From IMG/VR virus record IMGVR_UViG_3300032291_001423, positions 1 through 20,825 of that record: DNA of 20,825 nt, one strand, 5' to 3'. The stretch comes from a virus. Below, one piece after another: positions 1,188 through 14,775 of the stretch. The position numbers were made by a program, and so were the translations under genes. Positions within the stretch are counted from its first letter, which is position 1; each line of letters opens with the position of its first letter. Under the pieces are notes generated by a model. That model was not told the DNA's origin, did not search any database, and saw only the letters and a list, made by a program, of their open reading frames with translations.

Positions 1188-1654
1188 ACCCTGCTCTCCA
1201 TTACGGCGCTGTAGTCGAAGAACTCAACGCAATCTTTGATTGATATTAACTCGTCGCTGAAGCCTTCAACCTCGGCGTTATATGTGTAGACTTTCTTTGG
1301 TACTTTTATGTTATTCTGCGCAAACAGGATGCCGCTCTGGGTAGCGCGCCAGAAGCCAGAGTGTTTCTTGGTAGGGTCTTCAGTACCCTGCCGCTCCACC
1401 AGGCCCCACCAACGCAGTGTTGGTAGTTGGTTTGATCTTACAAGCCAGCGCGGTGCGTGTTTAGGCACATCCACCCAGTCACCGTCTATACTATGATGTG
1501 CTAGCCAAACTAATGACCGTGCCATAGTCTCGTTAAGGCTACGTGGGTAAACCCTCCCCCACCTATCACAGCAGGGGCAATGACCACCGTCGGCCTCAAT
1601 AGCCCCGCGCCATAGGGCGCGAATTTCATTTAAAAAGCTTTTCCGTTCACTCAT
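1184..1654 (-). CDS. Zinc-ribbon/winged-helix-like phage protein, 156 aa
   Basis: The N-terminal part contains HCPCCDRWGRVYPRSLN (residues 25-41), a Cys/His cluster that could bind one zinc, followed by a helical region (MARSLVWLAHHS) and then RWWGLVERQ and GFWRATQSGILFA, which look like the helix and wing of a winged-helix domain. Similar proteins are common unknowns in phages. A role as a DNA-binding regulator is an inference from this layout only. The ATG at 1654 lies inside the 3' end of the sigma-4 gene (8-bp overlap) and is preceded by GGAAGGAGCAAACCA, one of the shared leaders. Confidence 0.8.
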   Translation of the reverse strand: MSERKSFLNEIRALWRGAIEADGGHCPCCDRWGRVYPRSLNETMARSLVWLAHHSIDGDWVDVPKHAPRWLVRSNQLPTLRWWGLVERQGTEDPTKKHSGFWRATQSGILFAQNNIKVPKKVYTYNAEVEGFSDELISIKDCVEFFDYSAVMESRV

Positions 1655-2267
1655 TGGTTTGCTCCTTCCAAGTTAATGTTTTGTAAGGCGAGTGTGCTCT
1701 TACTTCTTCATCAAAATATTTCTTCAGCCCCCGTGATGGATGCTTCAGCTTGCGGAGTGCCTTACACTCTATCTGCCGAATGCGGGTCTTCGACACACCC
1801 CAATCGCTAGCGATTTCCTCTAAAAGCTCTTCGTCAAAATACCTACGTCTGACTACTTGCTCTTCACGGGGTGTCAGGAGGCTTAAGGCCCCCCTTAAAA
1901 TACGAGATTGCTCGCCCCCTAAGGCCAGCTTGTCGGTGCTTTCACCAGAGGCGAGTTGCTTTACTTGCTCTTCGCTCATGTTGATCTCGTAGTTGTTACG
2001 TTCGAGTGCCATGCCTTGCTGCGCACTGGTCCACAGTTCTTCCGGCTCCACTTGAAGGGCGGACGATAACGCAAAGGCAGCATCTATCCATTCTCCAGTG
2101 TATGTATTCCTCGGCGCTTTACGTAACGTAATGAGGGAGTTCAAAGTTTGCAGGGAAATACCCGTTAGCTTTGCTAACTCGACTTGGCTTTTAATCCCAA
2201 GCTTCTTCATCTGACGTAAAATCAGTCCGTTGCGGATAGTTACTTTAACTGCATATTCACCCGCCAT
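1647..2267 (-). CDS. XRE helix-turn-helix fused to sigma-70 region 4, 206 aa
   Basis: Residues about 10-80 form an XRE/Cro-type DNA-binding domain: SQVELAKLTGISLQTLNSL is the helix-turn-helix, and the domain ends LSSALQVEPEELW, as in bacterial XRE repressors. Residues about 128-180 match region 4 of the housekeeping sigma factor: LTPREEQVVRRRYF (4.1), then VSKTRIRQIECKALRKLKHP (4.2), very close to E. coli RpoD RIRQIEAKALRKLRHPSR. Aligned with RpoD, the -35 reading residues R584 and E585 are replaced by K160 and T161, while R586, R588 and Q589 are kept (R162, R164, Q165). Regions 1.2 to 3 are absent, so it cannot melt a -10 element and is not a full sigma factor. It may place region 4 at XRE-bound sites, compete with host sigma, or act as a repressor. 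The leader is AAGGAGCAAGCT. Confidence 0.9.
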   Translation of the reverse strand: MAGEYAVKVTIRNGLILRQMKKLGIKSQVELAKLTGISLQTLNSLITLRKAPRNTYTGEWIDAAFALSSALQVEPEELWTSAQQGMALERNNYEINMSEEQVKQLASGESTDKLALGGEQSRILRGALSLLTPREEQVVRRRYFDEELLEEIASDWGVSKTRIRQIECKALRKLKHPSRGLKKYFDEEVRAHSPYKTLTWKEQTNE

Positions 2268-2574: not shown

Positions 2575-2946
2575 CTATCTTATTGGTGCTATGATGTCGG
2601 TCAGCTTGTTATAGTGTGTAGCTAACATTCTATGTGTGGCTGCGATCTGGTTAATAGTTGCGCGTATATCCTTGAGCGCCTTATACTCCGCCATCTGCTC
2701 TTCTTTAGCGGGGTTATCGGGGTTCTCGACCGCCCACACGATCTCCCGCCACTCGGCCAAAGATTTGCGCCCAAAATTGGGGATGCGCATTAACTCGTGG
2801 TCAGGTATATCTATAAAATCTCCGACAGTTGCGGGCCTTTTTGCGTTTCGAGGGTAGTCCCAATCGTTTATTAGGCAGTGGTGTAGGCGTACACCTATCT
2901 CCAAGTGGTCGATCAACGTGTCCCGTGTTATCTTTCTATCCTCCAT
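2575..2946 (-). CDS. RNA polymerase alpha-CTD-like protein with coiled-coil tail, 123 aa
   Basis: Residues about 12-72 match the C-terminal domain of bacterial RNA polymerase alpha: VRLHHCLIND, TVGDFIDIPDHELMRIPNFG and GRKSLAEW align with E. coli [28 protein letters not shown] and GKKSLTEI. Aligned residues that contact UP-element DNA in E. coli are largely kept: R265 (R20), C269 (C24), N294 (N57), G296 (G59), K298 (K61) and S299 (S62); N268 is His and K271 is Ile. Residues 81-120 are a charged helix that may be a coiled coil. The alpha N-terminal assembly domain is absent. The protein could bind UP-element-like DNA or contact sigma region 4 and activators, but this is inferred. The start at 2946 overlaps the polymerase stop by 11 bp. 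Confidence 0.85.
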   Translation of the reverse strand: MEDRKITRDTLIDHLEIGVRLHHCLINDWDYPRNAKRPATVGDFIDIPDHELMRIPNFGRKSLAEWREIVWAVENPDNPAKEEQMAEYKALKDIRATINQIAATHRMLATHYNKLTDIIAPIR

Positions 2947-5078: not shown

Positions 5079-5422
5079 GCTGTTCCCCCCGCTCTTATCC
5101 TGCGTTCCCTGTTCTCAAAAAACTTAAGCAGTGCCTTCAGCAGTGCAGCCGAGCCTTCCTTGGCGTTCTTGTTCCACTTGCGTTCGGAGTCGCTGTTCAA
5201 CCCCATAGAGTTAGCGTTGGGCTTCGCGGTTGTGGCATGCTCTACCTCTGGCTGCACCGCTACGACCTTATCCTCTTTGCCCATCTTTATCTTATCGCGC
5301 AGGGTGGTGACGCGCTTCACATCCACACCGTAGTATGATGCAATGTATTTCATGTCAGTTATGTACCCGATTGCGCGGATGATATCCTGGTCGGTCTGGC
5401 CCACGCCTTTATACTTCGACAT
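5075..5422 (-). CDS. Unknown protein with possible N-terminal helix-turn-helix, 115 aa
   Basis: The first 45 residues (DQDIIRAIGYITDMKYIASY followed by YGVDVKRVTTLRDKIKMG) have the spacing of a small helix-turn-helix. A low-complexity polar linker (residues 50-80) leads to a basic helical tail (AALLKALLKFFENRERRIR). DNA binding is inferred. The ATG at 5422 lies within the DnaA-like gene (14-bp overlap) and has AAGGATAAAG upstream; the TGA overlaps the next ATG. Confidence 0.75.
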   Translation of the reverse strand: MSKYKGVGQTDQDIIRAIGYITDMKYIASYYGVDVKRVTTLRDKIKMGKEDKVVAVQPEVEHATTAKPNANSMGLNSDSERKWNKNAKEGSAALLKALLKFFENRERRIRAGGTA

Positions 5423-5648
5423 TTACTTTATCCTTGTTCAACGCATGAACGATGGTGGTGTGGCAGCGGTTCATAACTCTCCCTATCTCCGTAGTGGAGA
5501 AGCCCTTACCTCGTAGCATTAGTATGCAGTGCAAGCGTACCTCCACCAGCTTCTTGCGGCGCAACGGCCCAAGAACATCATCGATAGTGTAGCCATGTTC
5601 TCGTGCAATCTCATCGATTGCCTCATGGGTTTTCTCTCTCGGGGTCAT
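5409..5648 (-). CDS. Stand-alone DnaA domain IV-like protein, 79 aa
   Basis: Residues about 33-72 resemble the DNA-binding domain IV of DnaA: LVEVRLHCILMLRGKGFSTT, then EIGRVMNRCHTTIVHAL, which aligns with the DnaA signature region around GRDHTTVLHA. The AAA+ domain is absent, so this is only the box-binding part. Similar short proteins are found in phages, where a role in origin recognition or regulation is plausible but unproven. The start is set at ATG 5648 because it overlaps the TGA of the methyltransferase-like gene (ATGA). A much longer ORF reading through from 5867 has a Gln/Thr/Ala-rich N-terminus that is just the shadow of that upstream gene. Confidence 0.8.
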   Translation of the reverse strand: MTPREKTHEAIDEIAREHGYTIDDVLGPLRRKKLVEVRLHCILMLRGKGFSTTEIGRVMNRCHTTIVHALNKDKVNVEV

Positions 5649-6244: not shown

Positions 6245-6639
6245 GCCTCTTCACTCTTGGTGCGAACGACAGGGGCGGTGTTATGCTCGATCCCGTTTTT
6301 GTCGCAGAGCCGTTGCAGAAAACCGGCAATCCCCTCAAGGTGACGTATCCGCTGCCGCTCTTTACGATCCATAGTCAGGGGCAGTTCAAGACCTATCTCA
6401 ACCATGCGGCGCTCAATGCGGCGCAAAGATACGCCAACAAATCCTGCTTTGGACTTAGCGCGGATGGCCCAATCAACATCGTCACTGCTGTGATCATCAA
6501 ACAGGTTATGCGCGGCGACTTGCGCTTTAAGGTTATCGTACAAGTCAACGGCATTCTCGTGCCAATCAAGTAAGACTTTGGCGCTGGTCTCCTGTTGGAT
6601 TTCCTCGCGGTCAGGCATCGTGTCATGTTCTATGTTCAT
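6241..6639 (-). CDS. Unknown protein, 132 aa
   Basis: No family is recognised. The protein is predicted helical and charged, with two amphipathic segments (about residues 20-45 and 70-115) and no membrane or signal sequence. It is coupled to both neighbours (TAATG upstream, ATGA downstream) and sits between a VRR-NUC nuclease and a methyltransferase-like gene, so it probably belongs to the same replication or DNA-processing group. Confidence 0.75.
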   Translation of the reverse strand: MNIEHDTMPDREEIQQETSAKVLLDWHENAVDLYDNLKAQVAAHNLFDDHSSDDVDWAIRAKSKAGFVGVSLRRIERRMVEIGLELPLTMDRKERQRIRHLEGIAGFLQRLCDKNGIEHNTAPVVRTKSEEA

Positions 6640-6956
6640 TATGTGTTTTCCCTTGCGGCTCTTAGTGATAGTTCCTGAACCAGTGCGCGCACCATGTCCC
6701 AGTTCTCTTCATTAGCCACGACCGCCACACCATTAGCGCGGCGTATTGCTTCGATCTCGTTGGCTTGCAGGGCAGTCAGCTTGTTCGTCCCTGCCTTGCA
6801 CTCGATGGCCAGGAAATACCCGGCCACACAGGCCACGATGTCAGGCACACCGCTGCGGCCAAAGCCATGCGTAGCTGGGAAGAAGTAGTACACCCCTTCA
6901 GCCTTCAAGATCGACACGACCTTGTCCTTAACGATTTTCTCAGGCGTCTTTGCCAT
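6639..6956 (-). CDS. VRR-NUC domain nuclease, 105 aa
   Basis: The whole protein is one VRR-NUC domain of the PD-(D/E)XK nuclease superfamily. GVPD (residues 36-39, metal ligand D39) and IECK (51-54, E52 and K54) form the active site, and TALQ with a following helix (61-72) completes the fold. This length is normal for phage VRR-NUC proteins. In eukaryotes the same domain is found in FAN1. In phages it usually lies among replication and recombination genes, as here, and is thought to process branched or flapped DNA; the substrate here is unknown. The start at 6956 overlaps the upstream gene by 17 bp. Confidence 0.92.
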   Translation of the reverse strand: MAKTPEKIVKDKVVSILKAEGVYYFFPATHGFGRSGVPDIVACVAGYFLAIECKAGTNKLTALQANEIEAIRRANGVAVVANEENWDMVRALVQELSLRAARENT

Positions 6957-7341: not shown

Positions 7342-7370
7342 CTTATCCCTCTATCCGTAGACAGTGTCAA
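7342..7370 (-). promoter_or_regulatory. Predicted sigma-70 promoter of the replication operon
   Basis: On the - strand TTGACA (7370-7365) is followed after 17 bp by GATAAG (7347-7342). The -35 is perfect and the -10 matches four of six consensus bases. It directly precedes the 125-aa gene, and upstream lies an AT-rich stretch with four phased GATC sites. Confidence 0.55.
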
Positions 7371-7380
7371 TCATTCTTTT

Positions 7381-7418
7381 GTGATCAATTTTGATCAATC
7401 GTGATCTTTTTTGATCTT
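7381..7418. promoter_or_regulatory. Four GATC sites at exact 10-bp spacing upstream of the promoter
   Basis: GATC begins at 7383, 7393, 7403 and 7413, each within A/T-rich flanks; two copies are TGATCA palindromes. The array lies 13-46 bp upstream of the -35 at 7370-7365 and overlaps the last codons of the ribbon-helix-helix gene. One-turn spacing puts all copies on the same face of the helix. It may be a tandem operator for that protein, an UP-element-like site, or a Dam-methylation switch; none of these is demonstrated. Confidence 0.5.
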
Positions 7419-7556
7419 AGCTTCCACGTGGGCATCCAATACCTCCCGCATATATGTGCGCGGGTTCTCGAACTGTTGGAAGTAAGCCAGGGTTTCTACT
7501 GGGATACGCATTGTGATGTGTGCCATAGCGGTGCTTGGCTTGGTGGTTTCAGTCAT
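7395..7556 (-). CDS. Ribbon-helix-helix (CopG/Arc-like) protein, 53 aa
   Basis: Residues 12-19 (AHITMRIP) form the DNA-contacting beta strand, VETLAYFQQF (20-29) the first helix, and RTYMREVLDAHVEAK (33-47) the second helix of a ribbon-helix-helix fold. Such proteins are dimeric repressors that often bind tandem short operators and regulate their own operon. The start at 7556 overlaps the previous TGA (ATGA) and has AGAGGATAAAAA upstream. Its stop lies within the phased GATC array just before the replication-operon promoter, which makes that array a natural candidate target. It is too short for many gene finders. Confidence 0.75.
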   Translation of the reverse strand: MTETTKPSTAMAHITMRIPVETLAYFQQFENPRTYMREVLDAHVEAKIKKDHD

Positions 7557-7705: not shown

Positions 7706-7893
7706 GCTGCTTTCCTTTCCATATTGATGGTGTTGCGTAAGTGCCACTCGTTGAACAGGGATATCCCACGGCGCTTGCCATATGCGACTGCGGCCTTGCT
7801 TAACTGCGGTTCGAGTATCTTTAGTTCTTTGCGTAGCTTGTCCACCTTTGCCAGTAGGCGGATGGTTTCTCTGTCTGCTTGTTTATCGATCAT
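7702..7893 (-). CDS. Small basic helical protein, 63 aa
   Basis: No family is recognised. Residues 7-36 look like one long amphipathic helix (ETIRLLAKVDKLRKELKILE), possibly a coiled coil. The tail is basic. The start at 7893 has the shared leader GAGGAGCAAACA; the stop overlaps the next ATG. Confidence 0.7.
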   Translation of the reverse strand: MIDKQADRETIRLLAKVDKLRKELKILEPQLSKAAVAYGKRRGISLFNEWHLRNTINMERKAA

Positions 7894-7903
7894 TGTTTGC
7901 TCC

Positions 7904-8068
7904 TCAATTCAATGGTGGCTTGTCGTACATCACGCCTTTTATCTTGATCCCTTTTTCTTCTAGCGTGTGCATGATGTTTGTTATGAACCATGCCTGTTCG
8001 GTTAGTATCGCGACGATACCCTGCATTGCTTCGGTCAGGCTCTCGATGGTTTCTCCCTCATCAGGCAT
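7904..8068 (-). CDS. Small unknown protein, 54 aa
   Basis: The protein begins MPDEGETIESLTEAMQGIVA and has a central hydrophobic helix (MQGIVAILTEQAWFITNIM), which is probably amphipathic rather than a membrane span. It overlaps the upstream gene by 8 bp and lies 10 bp from the downstream start. The reading frame and overlap support it; the function is unknown. Confidence 0.6.
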   Translation of the reverse strand: MPDEGETIESLTEAMQGIVAILTEQAWFITNIMHTLEEKGIKIKGVMYDKPPLN

Positions 8069-8291: not shown

Positions 8292-8561
8292 TCATCCTTC
8301 ATAGTCACGCGCTGAGTCGCGTAAGTAGTCGCCATAGTCTGCCTGTGCATCGATCATGTCTTCCGATACCCGTCCAAGCGCCTCATCATACAGTTCGCGA
8401 TCCTCGGCCTCTGTGGTTTCCAGTTCAGCCCCGTTATGTCGCACCGACTCAAGCATCACCTCATCATCATCGACAAAGTAGGCCACCTCAACCTCCAGGA
8501 ATTTCCCGTCCCGCTCAAGGTCGTAGTCAAAATAGAATGTATGGTGTCTGTTGAATCTCAT
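8292..8561 (-). CDS. Small acidic protein, 89 aa
   Basis: The protein is strongly acidic, with roughly a third Asp/Glu. The first half appears to be beta strands (HHTFYFDYDLE, LEVEVAYFVDDDEVML) and the second half helical. Highly acidic small phage proteins sometimes mimic DNA, but nothing here proves that. The ATG at 8561 has GGAGAGAGACA upstream. Confidence 0.7.
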   Translation of the reverse strand: MRFNRHHTFYFDYDLERDGKFLEVEVAYFVDDDEVMLESVRHNGAELETTEAEDRELYDEALGRVSEDMIDAQADYGDYLRDSARDYEG

Positions 8562-8572
8562 TGTCTCTCTCC

Positions 8573-9061
8573 TTATGCAAAGTAGATTGCTTTGGCCTCA
8601 TCGACGGGTAGGTCGGCAAGGTATGTGTAGTGTGGGTTCTGCGCCTTCATTACATCCAGCATCATCCACAGCGTCTTGGGTTTCTTGAAGCCTAGTTGCC
8701 ATACGCCTTGCGTGTCGGGCTTGGTGAACAGCACTTTGCTTTTCATTGCGCGGTTAAAGTCCTTATCGCGCAGCCATTGATTGACTAGGTCACCGCACAC
8801 CATCTCTAGGTTTTTCTTAAGGGTGTAGCCCTCATACTCGTATGGTTCGTACGTTTCCTTGATGCGCTTGTTTAGTTCTGCGAGGTCATCATAGCTTTTG
8901 TTTTCGCTGTGGAAGTCATCACCACCCCCTTGTCCTTGGTTAGACACAGTCCCCCACTTAACGCCATCGACGTACAGGGTTGCCTGATAGCAGTGGGTCT
9001 CTTCCGATGCCCATGCGGTGTGCTTGATGTTCTTCAATTCGATTACTGGTTTAATTGTCAT
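8573..9061 (-). CDS. Unknown protein, 162 aa
   Basis: The protein begins MTIKPVIELKNIKHTAWASE and has an N-terminal beta-rich part with a Gly-rich turn (NQGQGGGDDFH, residues 41-51), then helices. It resembles unknown phage proteins with the pattern 'ETxCYxATLYVDG'. The start is set at ATG 9061, which has AAGGAGCAAACGAC upstream; the longer ORF from 9358 has an Arg-rich N-terminus that is the shadow of other genes. The gap before it contains two GTGNCAC motifs. Confidence 0.8.
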   Translation of the reverse strand: MTIKPVIELKNIKHTAWASEETHCYQATLYVDGVKWGTVSNQGQGGGDDFHSENKSYDDLAELNKRIKETYEPYEYEGYTLKKNLEMVCGDLVNQWLRDKDFNRAMKSKVLFTKPDTQGVWQLGFKKPKTLWMMLDVMKAQNPHYTYLADLPVDEAKAIYFA

Positions 9062-9075
9062 GTCGTTTGCTCCTT

Positions 9076-9094
9076 GTGTCACGTTGTGTGGCAC
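9076..9094. promoter_or_regulatory. Pair of GTGNCAC motifs in an intergenic gap
   Basis: GTGTCAC lies at 9076-9082 and GTGGCAC at 9088-9094, between the stop at 9111 and the start at 9061. A TTGACA on the - strand (9114-9109) lies just upstream, but no acceptable -10 is present at 16-18 bp (GCCACA or CCACAC). This is therefore either a weak promoter or an operator without its own promoter. The same motif is in the spacers of three better promoters in this window. Confidence 0.4.
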
Positions 9095-11460: not shown

Positions 11461-11488
11461 ATTATACCTAGCGTGACACGGATGTCAA
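11461..11488 (-). promoter_or_regulatory. Strong predicted sigma-70 promoter with GTGACAC in the spacer
   Basis: On the - strand a perfect TTGACA (11488-11483) and a perfect TATAAT (11466-11461) are separated by 16 bp. The spacer holds GTGACAC (+ strand 11473-11479, within the palindrome CGTGACACG). The 11-bp sequence containing the -35 is repeated in inverted orientation at 11512-11522. Confidence 0.8.
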
Positions 11489-11522
11489 TAAATTTTTTAC
11501 AATGTATGATTATTTATTGACA
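11483..11522. repeat. Perfect 11-bp inverted repeat over the -35 element
   Basis: TGTCAATAAAT (11483-11493) and ATTTATTGACA (11512-11522) are exact inverted copies separated by 18 bp of AT-rich sequence. One arm contains the -35 of the promoter. The centre-to-centre distance of 29 bp is close to three helical turns, compatible with a repressor site, but nothing identifies the binder. Confidence 0.6.
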
Positions 11523-11548
11523 CCCGGCTTTCCCTGGTTAGCGGCCGC

Positions 11549-11713
11549 TTAGGTAAACCGCTCAATCTTGTTGCGTTGCTCGACCAGAAAGTCTGTCACT
11601 GTGTCGAACTCTTGGAAATCCATCAGCACGATGTCATGCACCTGTCCGCTGTCGATTAGGTCGCACAGGTCGAAATAGATTTCCTGTAGCGTTGTTTTGT
11701 CTTTGTCTGTCAT
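11549..11713 (-). CDS. Small acidic protein, 54 aa
   Basis: The protein begins MTDKDKTTLQEIYFDLCDLI and is acidic and helical, with a hydrophobic patch HDIVLMDFQEFDTV in the middle. No family is recognised. The start is set at ATG 11713, which overlaps the previous stop (ATGA) and has AAGGGACAGAGCA upstream; the longer ORF from 11800 is a frame shadow at its N-terminus. This is the last gene of its run before the promoter at 11461-11488. Confidence 0.7.
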   Translation of the reverse strand: MTDKDKTTLQEIYFDLCDLIDSGQVHDIVLMDFQEFDTVTDFLVEQRNKIERFT

Positions 11714-11856
11714 TGCTCTGTCCCTTTCAATATATCTGCACATTGCAGGATGCGTACTAGTTCCCGTGCCCATTGTGCTGCGTCTATATCCTTGCCGCAT
11801 TGTTTGTATGCAATGGCCTTTGCCATCGCTCGGCTTGCTTCGCTTCTATCGATCAT
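11710..11856 (-). CDS. Small unknown protein, 48 aa
   Basis: The protein begins MIDRSEASRAMAKAIAYKQC and is predicted to be all helix (DAAQWARELVRILQCADIL). It overlaps both neighbours as ATGA. The function is unknown. Confidence 0.65.
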   Translation of the reverse strand: MIDRSEASRAMAKAIAYKQCGKDIDAAQWARELVRILQCADILKGTEQ

Positions 11857-12056
11857 GGTGTTTGTCCCTTCATCTGTGCCTGTAGCGACAGGATTAATGT
11901 TTCGTACTCTTGCGATATGTCGTAATAGTTTGTTGCTTGGCTTTCGTGGCCTTTGCGGTCGGCATGGTGTGCCTTTTCGAAATAGTCTCCCCTTAGGTCA
12001 TCCAAAGCGGCAATGATTGTGTGCATCTGCACTTCTGTTAGGTTTATGTTATGCAT
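11853..12056 (-). CDS. Small helical protein, 67 aa
   Basis: The protein begins MHNINLTEVQMHTIIAALDD and consists of two predicted helices with His-rich positions (YFEKAHHADRKGHESQA). Similar short phage proteins are unassigned. It overlaps the upstream gene by 8 bp and the downstream gene by ATGA. Confidence 0.7.
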   Translation of the reverse strand: MHNINLTEVQMHTIIAALDDLRGDYFEKAHHADRKGHESQATNYYDISQEYETLILSLQAQMKGQTP

Positions 12057-12321
12057 CGCTAGTTCCCTCCCCTTGGATATACTCGCACTCTACCTTCAAC
12101 ATTGATTTAAGTTCGGCCTTGATCGCTCGCGCTGTTTCTCCCCGCCACGATGTCGCGTTGGATAGGAAATAGCGCACGATGTCGGATGCGTTGTCGTAAT
12201 AATAACTGTCGTGGATTGTATCCAAGTGAAGCATTGCATCCAGATAAGGTACGGCTCCGAAATATGGTTTCGCCCAATCCTTGCGGATGTCGTTTGCAAT
12301 AGTGTTAAGTGAACGTATCAT
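12049..12321 (-). CDS. Unknown protein, first gene after the 12.3-kb promoter, 90 aa
   Basis: The protein begins MIRSLNTIANDIRKDWAKPY and continues with a helical region (YYYDNASDIVRYFLSN) and a basic helix (ARAIKAELKSML). No family is recognised. The start is set at ATG 12321 because AGGAAGGAAACCAGAAA precedes it and a promoter lies 30 bp upstream; the reading frame extends 10 codons further, but without a ribosome site. Confidence 0.7.
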   Translation of the reverse strand: MIRSLNTIANDIRKDWAKPYFGAVPYLDAMLHLDTIHDSYYYDNASDIVRYFLSNATSWRGETARAIKAELKSMLKVECEYIQGEGTSDA

Positions 12322-12344
12322 TTTCTGGTTTCCTTCCTGTTGAT

Positions 12345-12379
12345 GTGTCACAGTTTAGTTTAGTGTGCCACGATGTCAA
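12345..12379 (-). promoter_or_regulatory. Predicted sigma-70 promoter with two GTGNCAC motifs
   Basis: On the - strand TTGACA (12379-12374) is followed after 16 bp by TAAACT (12357-12352; four of six consensus bases). GTGCCAC (+ strand 12365-12371) lies in the spacer and GTGTCAC (12345-12351) directly abuts the -10 on its downstream side. The core of this promoter resembles the one at 11461-11488 (TTGACATC, GTG-N-CAC, CTA). Confidence 0.65.
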
Positions 12380-12387
12380 GCACCTAA

Positions 12388-12702
12388 TGTTGTAAAAATG
12401 GGTGTATTGTTGTAAAAGTGATTTTGAAAATATTACAAAAGAAACTGGCCTTGCACTAAGCATTTTCTGGTATTGTTGTAATGTTGTATTGTAATAAGTA
12501 TATATATGTAGCAACCAAATTTTATGTGCTTTCAGGGGAGAGCTTGCGAGACTGCCCGTTCGATTTCATTTTCCCCATGTATACCGATATTTTTGCTACA
12601 ATTGCTACAATAGGGTTATGTCGTTGAAACTAAACGATTTAAAATAATACATTAGTTACAACAATACACCTATTTTTGCTACATTACATTATTTTTGCTA
12701 CA
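12388..12702. repeat. Iteron-like repeats TGTTGTA and TATTTTTGCTACA
   Basis: TGTTGTAAAA occurs at 12388-12397 and 12408-12417, exactly 20 bp apart, with related TGTTGTA copies around 12474 and 12482. The 15-mer GGTGTATTGTTGTAA (12401-12415) has an exact inverted copy at 12656-12670. TATTTTTGCTACA occurs exactly at 12588-12600, 12671-12683 and 12690-12702. A tandem TTGCTACAA is at 12593-12601 and 12602-12610, and an inverted TTGCTACAT is at 12506-12514. Repeats of this kind bind initiators or regulators. Confidence 0.7.
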
Positions 12703-12738
12703 ATACCCGCCAGCCATTGACGTTTAAATCAATTCATG

Positions 12739-12761
12739 ATATTCACAAAGTTTGTGAATAT
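12739..12761. repeat. Perfect 23-bp palindrome (operator-like)
   Basis: ATATTCACAAA (12739-12749) and TTTGTGAATAT (12751-12761) are exact inverted arms around a single central G. This is the geometry of an operator for a dimeric repressor rather than an RNA hairpin. It lies 70 bp beyond the stop of the cysteine-rich gene. No promoter is clearly associated. Confidence 0.6.
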
Positions 12762-12795
12762 ATAGCGGCACGCAAGTTAAGATAGTTCCCGCTTA

Positions 12796-12818
12796 GGAAC
12801 CGGGAAAAACCCGGTTCC
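12796..12818 (-). terminator. GC-rich hairpin after the cysteine-rich gene (terminator-like, no U tract)
   Basis: GGAACCGGG (12796-12804) and CCCGGTTCC (12810-12818) form a perfect 9-bp stem around a 5-base loop, 13 bp past the stop at 12831. The stem is strong, but no run of T follows on the - strand, so it is not a canonical intrinsic terminator. It could stabilise the 3' end of the transcript. Confidence 0.4.
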
Positions 12819-12830
12819 CATGATCTCCCC

Positions 12831-13565
12831 TTAGTGTCGTGCAATCTGGATTGATACTTTCGCTTTGCCACTTGTGCCCATGCAAGCACGGCACGTAGCG
12901 CAATCAGTAAGCGCGCCCTTTTCTTTTGATGCGGGACAGATTGCTTCAACGCCCTTTACATTTTCAAATGGCTTGGCGGTAACGCGAAACGTACGATAGC
13001 CTTTTTTGTGTGCGTCTAACATATCCGCCAAGCTATCCGCGCTTGCCATTACAAGCTTAGCCCATGCCGTTCCTGCTATGCGCCATTGGTGCGTATATCC
13101 CGTCCACCCTAAAGCCTTGCTTGCCATTGCTCGCCATAGTGCAATTGGTGCGGCATATGGATCCCCGTAGCTACCGAAACGTACCATACGATTTTCGCAT
13201 AGGGCCGCGATATCGGCATAGCTAGCAACGGGATATAAACCACGCTTGTAAGCTTTCCAGACAACCAATGGCGCTTGCCACACTTTGACATAGCATCGGA
13301 TATGCTTTGCGCCTGTCGCTTCAATCTCCGCCTTGCGGGCTGGCCGATGTATACACTGGCCACATATCGATTCATCTTCCCCGTTTCGGATAGCCTCATT
13401 AGGTGCAATGTCTTCCCGAATAATCCACGTTTGAATCATATCACCCGTTTTGCCATTGGCGCTTTTGTTCGCAAAGCCTGTGGCGATTACCACGATAGGC
13501 TTGCCGTCGATATTGCTAGGCCCTTGATAAAGGATATAGCCATTAGGTGCTTGTGCTTTAGGCAT
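12831..13565 (-). CDS. Cysteine-rich phage protein of unknown function, 244 aa
   Basis: Cysteines are arranged as C68-x2-C71, C91, C123, C210 and C222-x2-C225-x2-C228. The C-terminal region reads EAICPASKEKGALTDC followed by ATCRACMG, a pattern compatible with zinc or an iron-sulfur cluster. A helical segment VMASADSLADMLDAHKKGYR (172-191) precedes it. Related proteins occur in phages and plasmids as unknowns; I know of no established role. It has no membrane segment. The ATG at 13565 follows AAGGGGATTTCCC. It is the last gene of the operon starting near 14.14 kb and borders the repeat-rich control region, so a DNA-linked role is possible. Confidence 0.85.
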   Translation of the reverse strand: MPKAQAPNGYILYQGPSNIDGKPIVVIATGFANKSANGKTGDMIQTWIIREDIAPNEAIRNGEDESICGQCIHRPARKAEIEATGAKHIRCYVKVWQAPLVVWKAYKRGLYPVASYADIAALCENRMVRFGSYGDPYAAPIALWRAMASKALGWTGYTHQWRIAGTAWAKLVMASADSLADMLDAHKKGYRTFRVTAKPFENVKGVEAICPASKEKGALTDCATCRACMGTSGKAKVSIQIARH

Positions 13566-13576
13566 GGGAAATCCCC

Positions 13577-13771
13577 TTAAGAAAGTTTGTTCAATTGCTT
13601 GATTGCTTGCGCTTCTAGCCCATTAGTGTCGGGCATATCGTGCAACCCAAGGATTTTGAGCGCCACATAAACAAGGCCCGAATTCGATAGGTGTGGATAG
13701 GTACGCTTTGCGTCTAATGCGACTCGCACCAATACAGTTACAGTGTGTAATGATTTAGCTAATGGTTTCAT
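13577..13771 (-). CDS. Small unknown protein, 64 aa
   Basis: The protein begins MKPLAKSLHTVTVLVRVALD and is helical and basic (SNSGLVYVALKILGLHDM in the middle). The start is set at ATG 13771 because it overlaps the previous TGA (ATGA); the ORF reading from 13825 starts inside the neighbour. No family is recognised. Confidence 0.7.
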   Translation of the reverse strand: MKPLAKSLHTVTVLVRVALDAKRTYPHLSNSGLVYVALKILGLHDMPDTNGLEAQAIKQLNKLS

Positions 13772-13962
13772 GGTATCGCCTTCCACAATCCGCGCTCGTG
13801 CATCGCGGTATTTACTTCTGCCCATGCTGCTAGGTCGCGTGGCGTGGCATCGGCTTCACTGTCGCGGCCATACAAGTACCAGTAACCTTTAAGCGCATCG
13901 TTTGAGATTCGTTCAAACTTGTCAGCATAAAATGCTGCCCATTTGGTGTATGTATCGTTCAT
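13768..13962 (-). CDS. Small unknown protein, 64 aa
   Basis: The protein begins MNDTYTKWAAFYADKFERIS and is aromatic-rich (GYWYLYGRDSEA, residues 26-37), with a C-terminal helix. No family is recognised. The ATG at 13962 follows CGGGAGCAACTAATC, a weak version of the shared leader, and its stop overlaps the next start. Confidence 0.7.
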   Translation of the reverse strand: MNDTYTKWAAFYADKFERISNDALKGYWYLYGRDSEADATPRDLAAWAEVNTAMHERGLWKAIP

Positions 13963-13964
13963 GA

Positions 13965-14138
13965 TTAGTTGCTCCCGATTAACATTTGAACCATGCGCTG
14001 GTCGCTAGGCGATAGCAGGATGCGAGCGAACGGATGCTTGCGATCATACTTTGCTAGGCGATCTAACGCTTTCATGGGATTGTTAATGCCCCGATATTGT
14101 AAGACTTCCGCACAAGCGGCCTCTAGTAACTTTTGCAT
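13965..14138 (-). CDS. Small basic helical protein, first gene of the leftward module, 57 aa
   Basis: The protein begins MQKLLEAACAEVLQYRGINN and has a basic middle (MKALDRLAKYDRKHPFARIL), consistent with nucleic-acid binding though no family is recognised. It is separated from the next start by 2 bp. The ribosome site is weak (TTAAGGATTTAATACC). A promoter lies about 100 bp upstream. Confidence 0.65.
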   Translation of the reverse strand: MQKLLEAACAEVLQYRGINNPMKALDRLAKYDRKHPFARILLSPSDQRMVQMLIGSN

Positions 14139-14238
14139 GGTATTAAATCCTTAAGCTTTCGTTTCGTATCGAGAGACGCAGGTTAGATCATGTTAGCCGT
14201 AGCGGGTCGATCTAGTGTTTGTCGTTTCGATGTTTTTA

Positions 14239-14282
14239 AGAATAAACGAAACTGTGTCACAGTCAAACGGAAAATGTGTCAC
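14239..14282 (-). promoter_or_regulatory. Predicted sigma-70 promoter with two GTGNCAC motifs
   Basis: On the - strand TTGACT (14266-14261) is followed after 16 bp by TATTCT (14244-14239). The first bases of the spacer are GTGACAC (+ strand GTGTCAC, 14254-14260), inside the perfect palindrome ACTGTGTCACAGT (14251-14263). A second GTGTCAC lies at 14276-14282, 22 bp upstream and just behind the -35. It would drive the operon starting at 14138. Confidence 0.55.
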
Positions 14283-14564: not shown

Positions 14565-14735
14565 ACCCCCCTGTGTGACGTTGGGACTCCGCCGCTCCCA
14601 TATACATAGTAATTTGCACAGTTTATCACATACATACAGAAACACCCCCCTATACAATGTCAAATCAAGACCCCCCACCCCCCTATATTTTCTGCCAACC
14701 ACCATCCGCTTAGCGCGCACTCAGAAACACCCCCC
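14565..14735. repeat. Cluster of C6 tracts and a 14-bp direct repeat
   Basis: Runs of six C occur at 14566-14571, 14645-14650, 14671-14676, 14678-14683 and 14730-14735. CAGAAACACCCCCC is exactly repeated at 14637-14650 and 14722-14735, and ACCCCCCTATA at 14644-14654 and 14677-14687. The opposite strand therefore carries repeated G6 runs, able in principle to form G-quadruplexes. Confidence 0.6.
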
Positions 14736-14747
14736 GTCAATGGTACC

Positions 14748-14775
14748 TTGACACACAAAGCCCCCATGGTACTAT
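14748..14775 (+). promoter_or_regulatory. Predicted rightward promoter upstream of the packaging genes
   Basis: TTGACA (14748-14753) is followed after 16 bp by TACTAT (14770-14775; four of six consensus bases). It is the only clear rightward -35 in the divergent region. Transcription would start near 14782 and give a structured leader of about 110 bases before the HNH gene. Confidence 0.5.

Follow-up and report, generated by a model that had tools for sequence, protein, structure and literature searches.

In phage P22, the ribbon-helix-helix (RHH) repressors Arc and Mnt act within phage promoters. RHH dimers enter one major groove of the DNA (PMC3325190). In E. coli, the RHH protein RelB occupies two palindromic half-sites of 12 bp that lie side by side on one helix face (PMC2812701). 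Short repeated intergenic sites in non-structural operons have also been described in mycobacteriophages, namely the 17-bp repeats of cluster O, the stoperators of cluster A and the start-associated sequences of cluster K, which are proposed or shown to be binding sites (PMC4351075, PMC9283540, PMC3203893); the function of the cluster O repeats is not known (PMC4351075). The GTGNCAC palindrome reported here resembles these sites in being short, repeated and intergenic, but differs from them in its location in promoter spacers, its length of only 7-9 bp and its symmetry. Stoperators are asymmetric and start-associated sequences overlap the ribosome-binding site (PMC9283540, PMC3203893). Cluster A stoperators are moreover oriented with transcription, present in many copies and served by an immunity repressor, whereas GTGNCAC is symmetric, lies in promoters and has 7 copies.

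The window, i.e. the whole stretch of DNA analysed, is a 20.8-kb virus record in which the early genes (replication side) run leftward and the terminase and portal genes rightward. Its terminase is 50-57% identical to those of HTVC023P, HTVC027P and DSL-LC04, and 74-95% identical to those of 80 IMG/VR loci. Genes on the contigs of relatives were called with our own script, which was checked on the window.

In the whole window, GTGNCAC occurs eight times, against a mean of 6.2 expected from dinucleotide shuffles, 26 of 100 of which reach 8; an enrichment over the whole window was thus rejected, the total being at chance level. The signal lies in placement and not in count, since seven of these eight copies are non-coding. 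They are found in four gaps, as the first-pass annotation had reported, and non-coding DNA amounts to about 1.85 kb, or 9% of the window. The exhaustive count against a shuffled background gave 0.59 expected non-coding copies, and none of 2000 dinucleotide shuffles reached 7. Furthermore, of the 64 possible palindromes that have arms of three bases and a free centre base, GTGNCAC ranks first in non-coding copies (7, the next having 4). The same annotation had seen no copy in coding sequence by eye; the full count revealed a single one, at 7741-7747.

The sites (GTGNCAC at 9076, 9088, 11473, 12345, 12365, 14254 and 14276) and the promoters were all found at the positions previously given, and the three leftward promoters indeed have 16-bp spacers and match the consensus well. 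All these features lie on the minus strand. Promoter P1 (TTGACT-16-TATTCT, 14239-14266, 9/12 consensus) leads leftward into 13965-14138 and the following genes. In its spacer, immediately behind the -35 (0 nt), is the copy at 14254-14260, which is kept in G001 and L050; another, at 14276-14282, is upstream of the -35, 22 bp from the next copy, and is absent in G001. L050 has a counterpart of this pair, spaced by 21 bp. In P2 (TTGACA-16-TAAACT, 12352-12379, 10/12 consensus), the sequence and its comparison with G001 place one copy in the spacer, 2 nt behind the -35 (12365-12371), and one directly downstream of the -10 (12345-12351), 20 bp from the former. P3 (TTGACA-16-TATAAT, 11461-11488) has perfect hexamers (12/12), with a copy at 11473-11479 in the spacer, 3 nt behind the -35; in G001 the extended palindrome reads AGCGTGTCACGCT.

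The last two copies form a pair, 12 bp centre to centre (9076-9094, minus strand), shortly before the ribosome-binding site that serves 8573-9061 (minus strand, 162 aa), the first gene behind it. A TTGACA does lie upstream of the pair, which had been noticed in this gap before, but a good -10 is missing. It heads the operon that contains an RHH gene, and a 12-bp pair of this kind is also present in G001, G022, G024 and L211, that is, in five genomes with the window. A promoter-like TTGACA-17-GATAAG (7342-7370, minus strand), belonging to the nuclease/DNA-polymerase operon, is without GTGNCAC in the window, whereas its orthologue in L209 carries GTGACAC. The edge of the regulon therefore varies and, of the earlier proposal that a single regulator switches all leftward operons, the single regulator is retained and the "all" is not.

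A search in relatives, one of the checks suggested in the first-pass annotation, showed that the relative G001 (62 kb, about 78% nucleotide identity to the window in the operator stretches) retains six of the seven sites at orthologous places, the lost one being 14276. At these sites the arms are identical at 36 of 36 positions, the centre base at 3 of 6 and the flanks at 385 of 495 (78%; Fisher p=1.7e-4). Fixed arms around a free centre are the pattern of a palindrome read by a protein. The TTGAC-GTGNCAC arrangement is likewise found in L050 and L017, upstream of the terminase side.

A consensus was derived from 30 distinct sites of nine contigs, in which the core is full by construction. This consensus, YGTGNCACR, covers about 9 bp: position ±4 is a pyrimidine, in outward reading, in 59 of 60 half-sites, and the information is near zero beyond ±5. 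Fourteen of the 30 sites sit 0-4 nt after TTGAC (or TTGCCA), with a -10 at 16 nt in the window, G001, L209 and L050, and paired sites are spaced by 12 bp (five genomes), then by 18, 20, 20, 21 and 22 bp. A palindrome of about 9 bp suits a dimer reading a single major groove. RHH-type operators are short palindromes of this sort, often repeated at 10-12 bp, and GTGNCAC agrees with this description in confining its information to about 9 bp and in forming the 12-bp pair in five genomes, its other pairs being at 18-22 bp. The likeness to RelB and its operator relO lies in one short palindrome per RHH dimer and in 12-bp side-by-side half-sites, which is the spacing of the 9076/9088 pair; the RelB system differs in serving toxin-antitoxin autoregulation, with the toxin as co-repressor, and in its core, [A/T]TGT[A/C]A (PMC2812701).

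From their placement, the conservation of the arms only, their recurrence in other genomes and their near-fixed position behind the -35, it is well supported, at the level of sequence, that one dimeric regulator acts through these sites. The candidate is a 53-aa RHH protein (7395-7556, minus strand), whose gene is the seventh of an unbroken run starting at the 9076/9088 pair. An RHH domain is a strand-helix-helix of about 45 aa with alternating DNA-facing strand residues, and this protein has a predicted DNA-facing strand H13-x-T15-M-R17 (HxTMR); its AlphaFold2 monomer model (pLDDT 83) displays an extended segment followed by helices 20-26 and 32-52. H13, T15 and R17 are invariant across the HxTMR set. 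In Pfam, the closest match of the family is the BrnA antitoxin (BrnA_antitoxin, PF14384), obtained for 8 of 18 members (best 6e-6); the window member is below detection and matches no RHH family there. Searches of PDB sequences with the family and by Foldseek with the 53-aa model returned no match, and in sequence the protein showed no detected match to Arc. As for a BrnT/BrnA module, no toxin gene was recognised adjoining the RHH gene: the scanned neighbours 7904-8068, 8292-8561 and 6639-6956 matched no toxin family, the last being an Hjc/VRR-NUC-like nuclease.

Homologues of the RHH protein are found in G001 (75%), L209 (65%), and G022, G024 and L211 (43-57%), and in most relatives the gene lies just upstream of the nuclease/polymerase genes. 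The strand is of the HxTMR type in genomes with the motif, and mainly HxNxR or xTSxR elsewhere. A TTGAC-linked or closely paired GTGNCAC was present in each of the six HxTMR genomes whose upstream DNA was long enough, against 3 of 33 relatives with another strand (Fisher p = 2.6e-5, kinship ignored). In some of these 33 the strand could not be read automatically, but none of those is HxTMR in alignments, and the pairs of the three positives (L153, L155 and L158) correspond to one shared spot in coding sequence and were discounted as coincidence. The contigs L017, L038 and L050 are not long enough to show the RHH gene, and that of G024 ends near its operator pair.

When loci were searched with the single RHH sequence no match was obtained, and an alignment query retrieved L209 and L211. 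As these were fetched through RHH similarity, without use of the motif, they confirm the prediction that links the two: 4 of 4 copies in L209 and 6 of 7 in L211 are non-coding (p=4.5e-4 and 3.5e-6, respectively). In the polymerase phylogeny, the genomes with the motif split into two groups with supported branches between them, and a single clade is rejected (p-AU 0.028), so that the motif and the RHH type moved together in an early gene block. This block holds other proteins too: early genes of 199, 54, 89 and 79 aa travel with the RHH gene and co-occur equally well, so that co-occurrence alone cannot single out the RHH protein. It is favoured within the block because it is the sole recognised DNA-binding protein there, as it is the only one present in all motif genomes examined. 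The binder of GTGNCAC is thus most likely, as far as sequence can tell, the 53-aa protein of 7395-7556.

Another protein of the early block (199, 54, 89, 79 or 244 aa) might be the binder of the same phage operator. The motif genomes share the early-block genes, which are missing in eight relatives that lack the motif and whose genomes are complete or nearly so, but none of these five proteins matches a DNA-binding family, and we consider this alternative unlikely. The 244-aa family (phrog_2554) was rejected as binder, since relatives without the HxTMR RHH protein lack the motif pattern: among 76 loci of this family where no RHH protein was found, only L221, a truncated contig of L017, and L244 combine a non-coding with a TTGAC-linked copy. 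A regulator supplied by the host, which would tie early phage transcription to the state of the cell, is less probable still; the window promoters are of host type, but phages at equal polymerase distance use no GTGNCAC, and the motif tracks one type of phage gene.

The first-pass annotation had named three candidate regulators, of which the RHH protein is indeed found in the motif genomes. The other two, a fusion of an XRE domain with sigma-70 region 4 (XRE-sigma4, 1647-2267, minus strand), by its domains a plausible promoter binder, and a 94-aa HTH protein, are without a homologue in the motif-bearing genomes G001, G022 and G024, and the stretches of L209 and L211, which bear the motif too, contain none either. 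A Cro-type HTH dimer needs half-sites spaced by about one turn of the helix, and the 7-bp core of GTGNCAC is unlike such half-sites, as it is unlike a Cro/CI (XRE) operator. In addition, three short contigs with XRE-sigma4 homologues contain no non-coding GTGNCAC. Both proteins are largely refuted by their absence from other motif genomes, and it is highly improbable that either is the binder. Almost as improbable is that GTGNCAC is no operator at all, being either a part of an extended promoter read by RNA polymerase or an RNA hairpin. Its nearly constant position just behind the -35 and the copies in presumed leaders would agree with this, but the offset from the -35 ranges from 0 to 4 nt, additional copies lie upstream of the -35 and downstream of the -10, and the centre base is free; spacer copies are untranscribed from their own promoter, and a hairpin of the 7-bp core would have a loop of 1 nt.

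On balance, GTGNCAC is probably the operator of a dimeric phage regulator of early leftward transcription, most likely an RHH protein that would repress. One dimer would contact the 7-9 bp palindrome within a single major groove and, at P1, P2 and P3, would lie between the -35 and -10 of host-type sigma-70 promoters, where it would block RNA polymerase. Steric hindrance is the simplest reading of sites so placed. Second copies might raise occupancy; at P1 and P2 they are at a distance of 20-22 bp, and the two sites of the pair at 9076/9088 are spaced by 12 bp. As the RHH gene belongs to the run that starts at this last pair, accumulation of the protein would shut down early transcription, making early expression self-limiting. 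The identity of the binder, repression as its effect and the shut-off of early genes are what we infer, and the regulator may instead activate.

With Arc and Mnt, the proposed system would share a small RHH protein of phage origin, strand residues that alternate and have Arg in third place, and an operator within an early promoter. It differs in the unrelated operator sequence and in that several promoters across 5 kb share one site. It would provide a concrete regulator-operator candidate pair for a phage group akin to the abundant pelagiphages of the HTVC023P type; for this group, no description of early-transcription control was found in the literature searched.

In relatives that lack GTGNCAC, the corresponding early region contains other repeated intergenic palindromes, specific to each genome. 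There are 11 copies of CTAACANTGTTAG in L121 and 8-9 of GTGACNNGTCAC in L143/G041; further lineages use GTAACNNGTTAC, CCTAACATGTTAGG, CTTACN4GTAAG, CTCACN4GTGAG, CTGATACGTATCAG and ATAGGAATTCCTAT, and GTGACTTGTCAC and CTAACATTGTTAG are also among them. L121, L143, L127, L134, L101, L095, L054, L021, L079, L056, L120, L156 and L150 each have their own early palindrome. These palindromes do not extend past the polymerase operon, being confined to the early region. Most of them are outside promoter spacers, at 13-36 nt upstream of start codons or right before the terminator after the RHH gene. At orthologous places, three close relatives have three different palindromes. The isolates HTVC023P and DSL-LC04 show no short palindrome that is prominently repeated in a comparable way.

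The RHH protein was rejected as binder of these other palindromes, since L134 and L156 have near-identical RHH proteins and different palindromes. The genomes concerned share early genes absent from the motif genomes, among them one for a P-loop ATPase-like protein, which has the sequence GEPGIGKS and in G002 a length of 355 aa, and one for a strongly diverged protein of about 280-300 aa upstream of the RHH gene (27% mean identity). The latter is a candidate for setting palindrome specificity in genomes without GTGNCAC; just upstream of the RHH gene (L134 8582-9439, L143 8751-9578), the protein of about 280 aa is 25-70% identical between near relatives. Tentatively, GTGNCAC might be one dialect of a family-wide code of early operons, in which close relatives swap their lineage-specific palindromes together at orthologous sites, as for the immunity/superinfection specificities of some regulator. 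The phages of this palindrome-bearing podovirus group look purely lytic. If one cause underlies the lineage palindromes, presumed lytic phages would have a specificity-switching early control resembling immunity systems.

Promoters whose -35 is one arm of the palindrome TTGACNNNGTCAA gave 24 matches, with 1.7 expected. They were observed at L121:19215, L112:13759, L095:17268, L153:15285 and some 16 further loci, and in most cases they precede the same orthologous gene.

Several other features of the window were recorded. The XRE-sigma4 protein has only three homologues in IMG/VR (58-63%). Two genes from it, a 123-aa protein (2575-2946, minus strand) matches the RNA polymerase alpha C-terminal domain (Pfam RNA_pol_A_CTD, 5.6e-9) and has homologues in G001 (45%) and L211 (39%); judged by this match, it is a piece of transcription machinery carried by the phage. 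A 79-aa protein (5409-5648, minus strand) matches the DNA-binding domain of DnaA (Bac_DnaA_C, 1.3e-9) without the ATPase part. At about 14640-14745 (minus strand) lies a conserved G-rich non-coding element, ATTGACGGGGGGTGTTTCT, with a second copy, GGGGGGTGTTTCTG, about 80 nt further; ATTGACGGGGGGTGTTTCT is also found near the terminase side in L014, L017, L049 and L057. Adjoining this element, a promoter-like TTGACA-16-TACTAT with TG before the -10 (14748-14775, plus strand) is directed rightward to the structural genes, and matches resembling it are present in G002 and G035.
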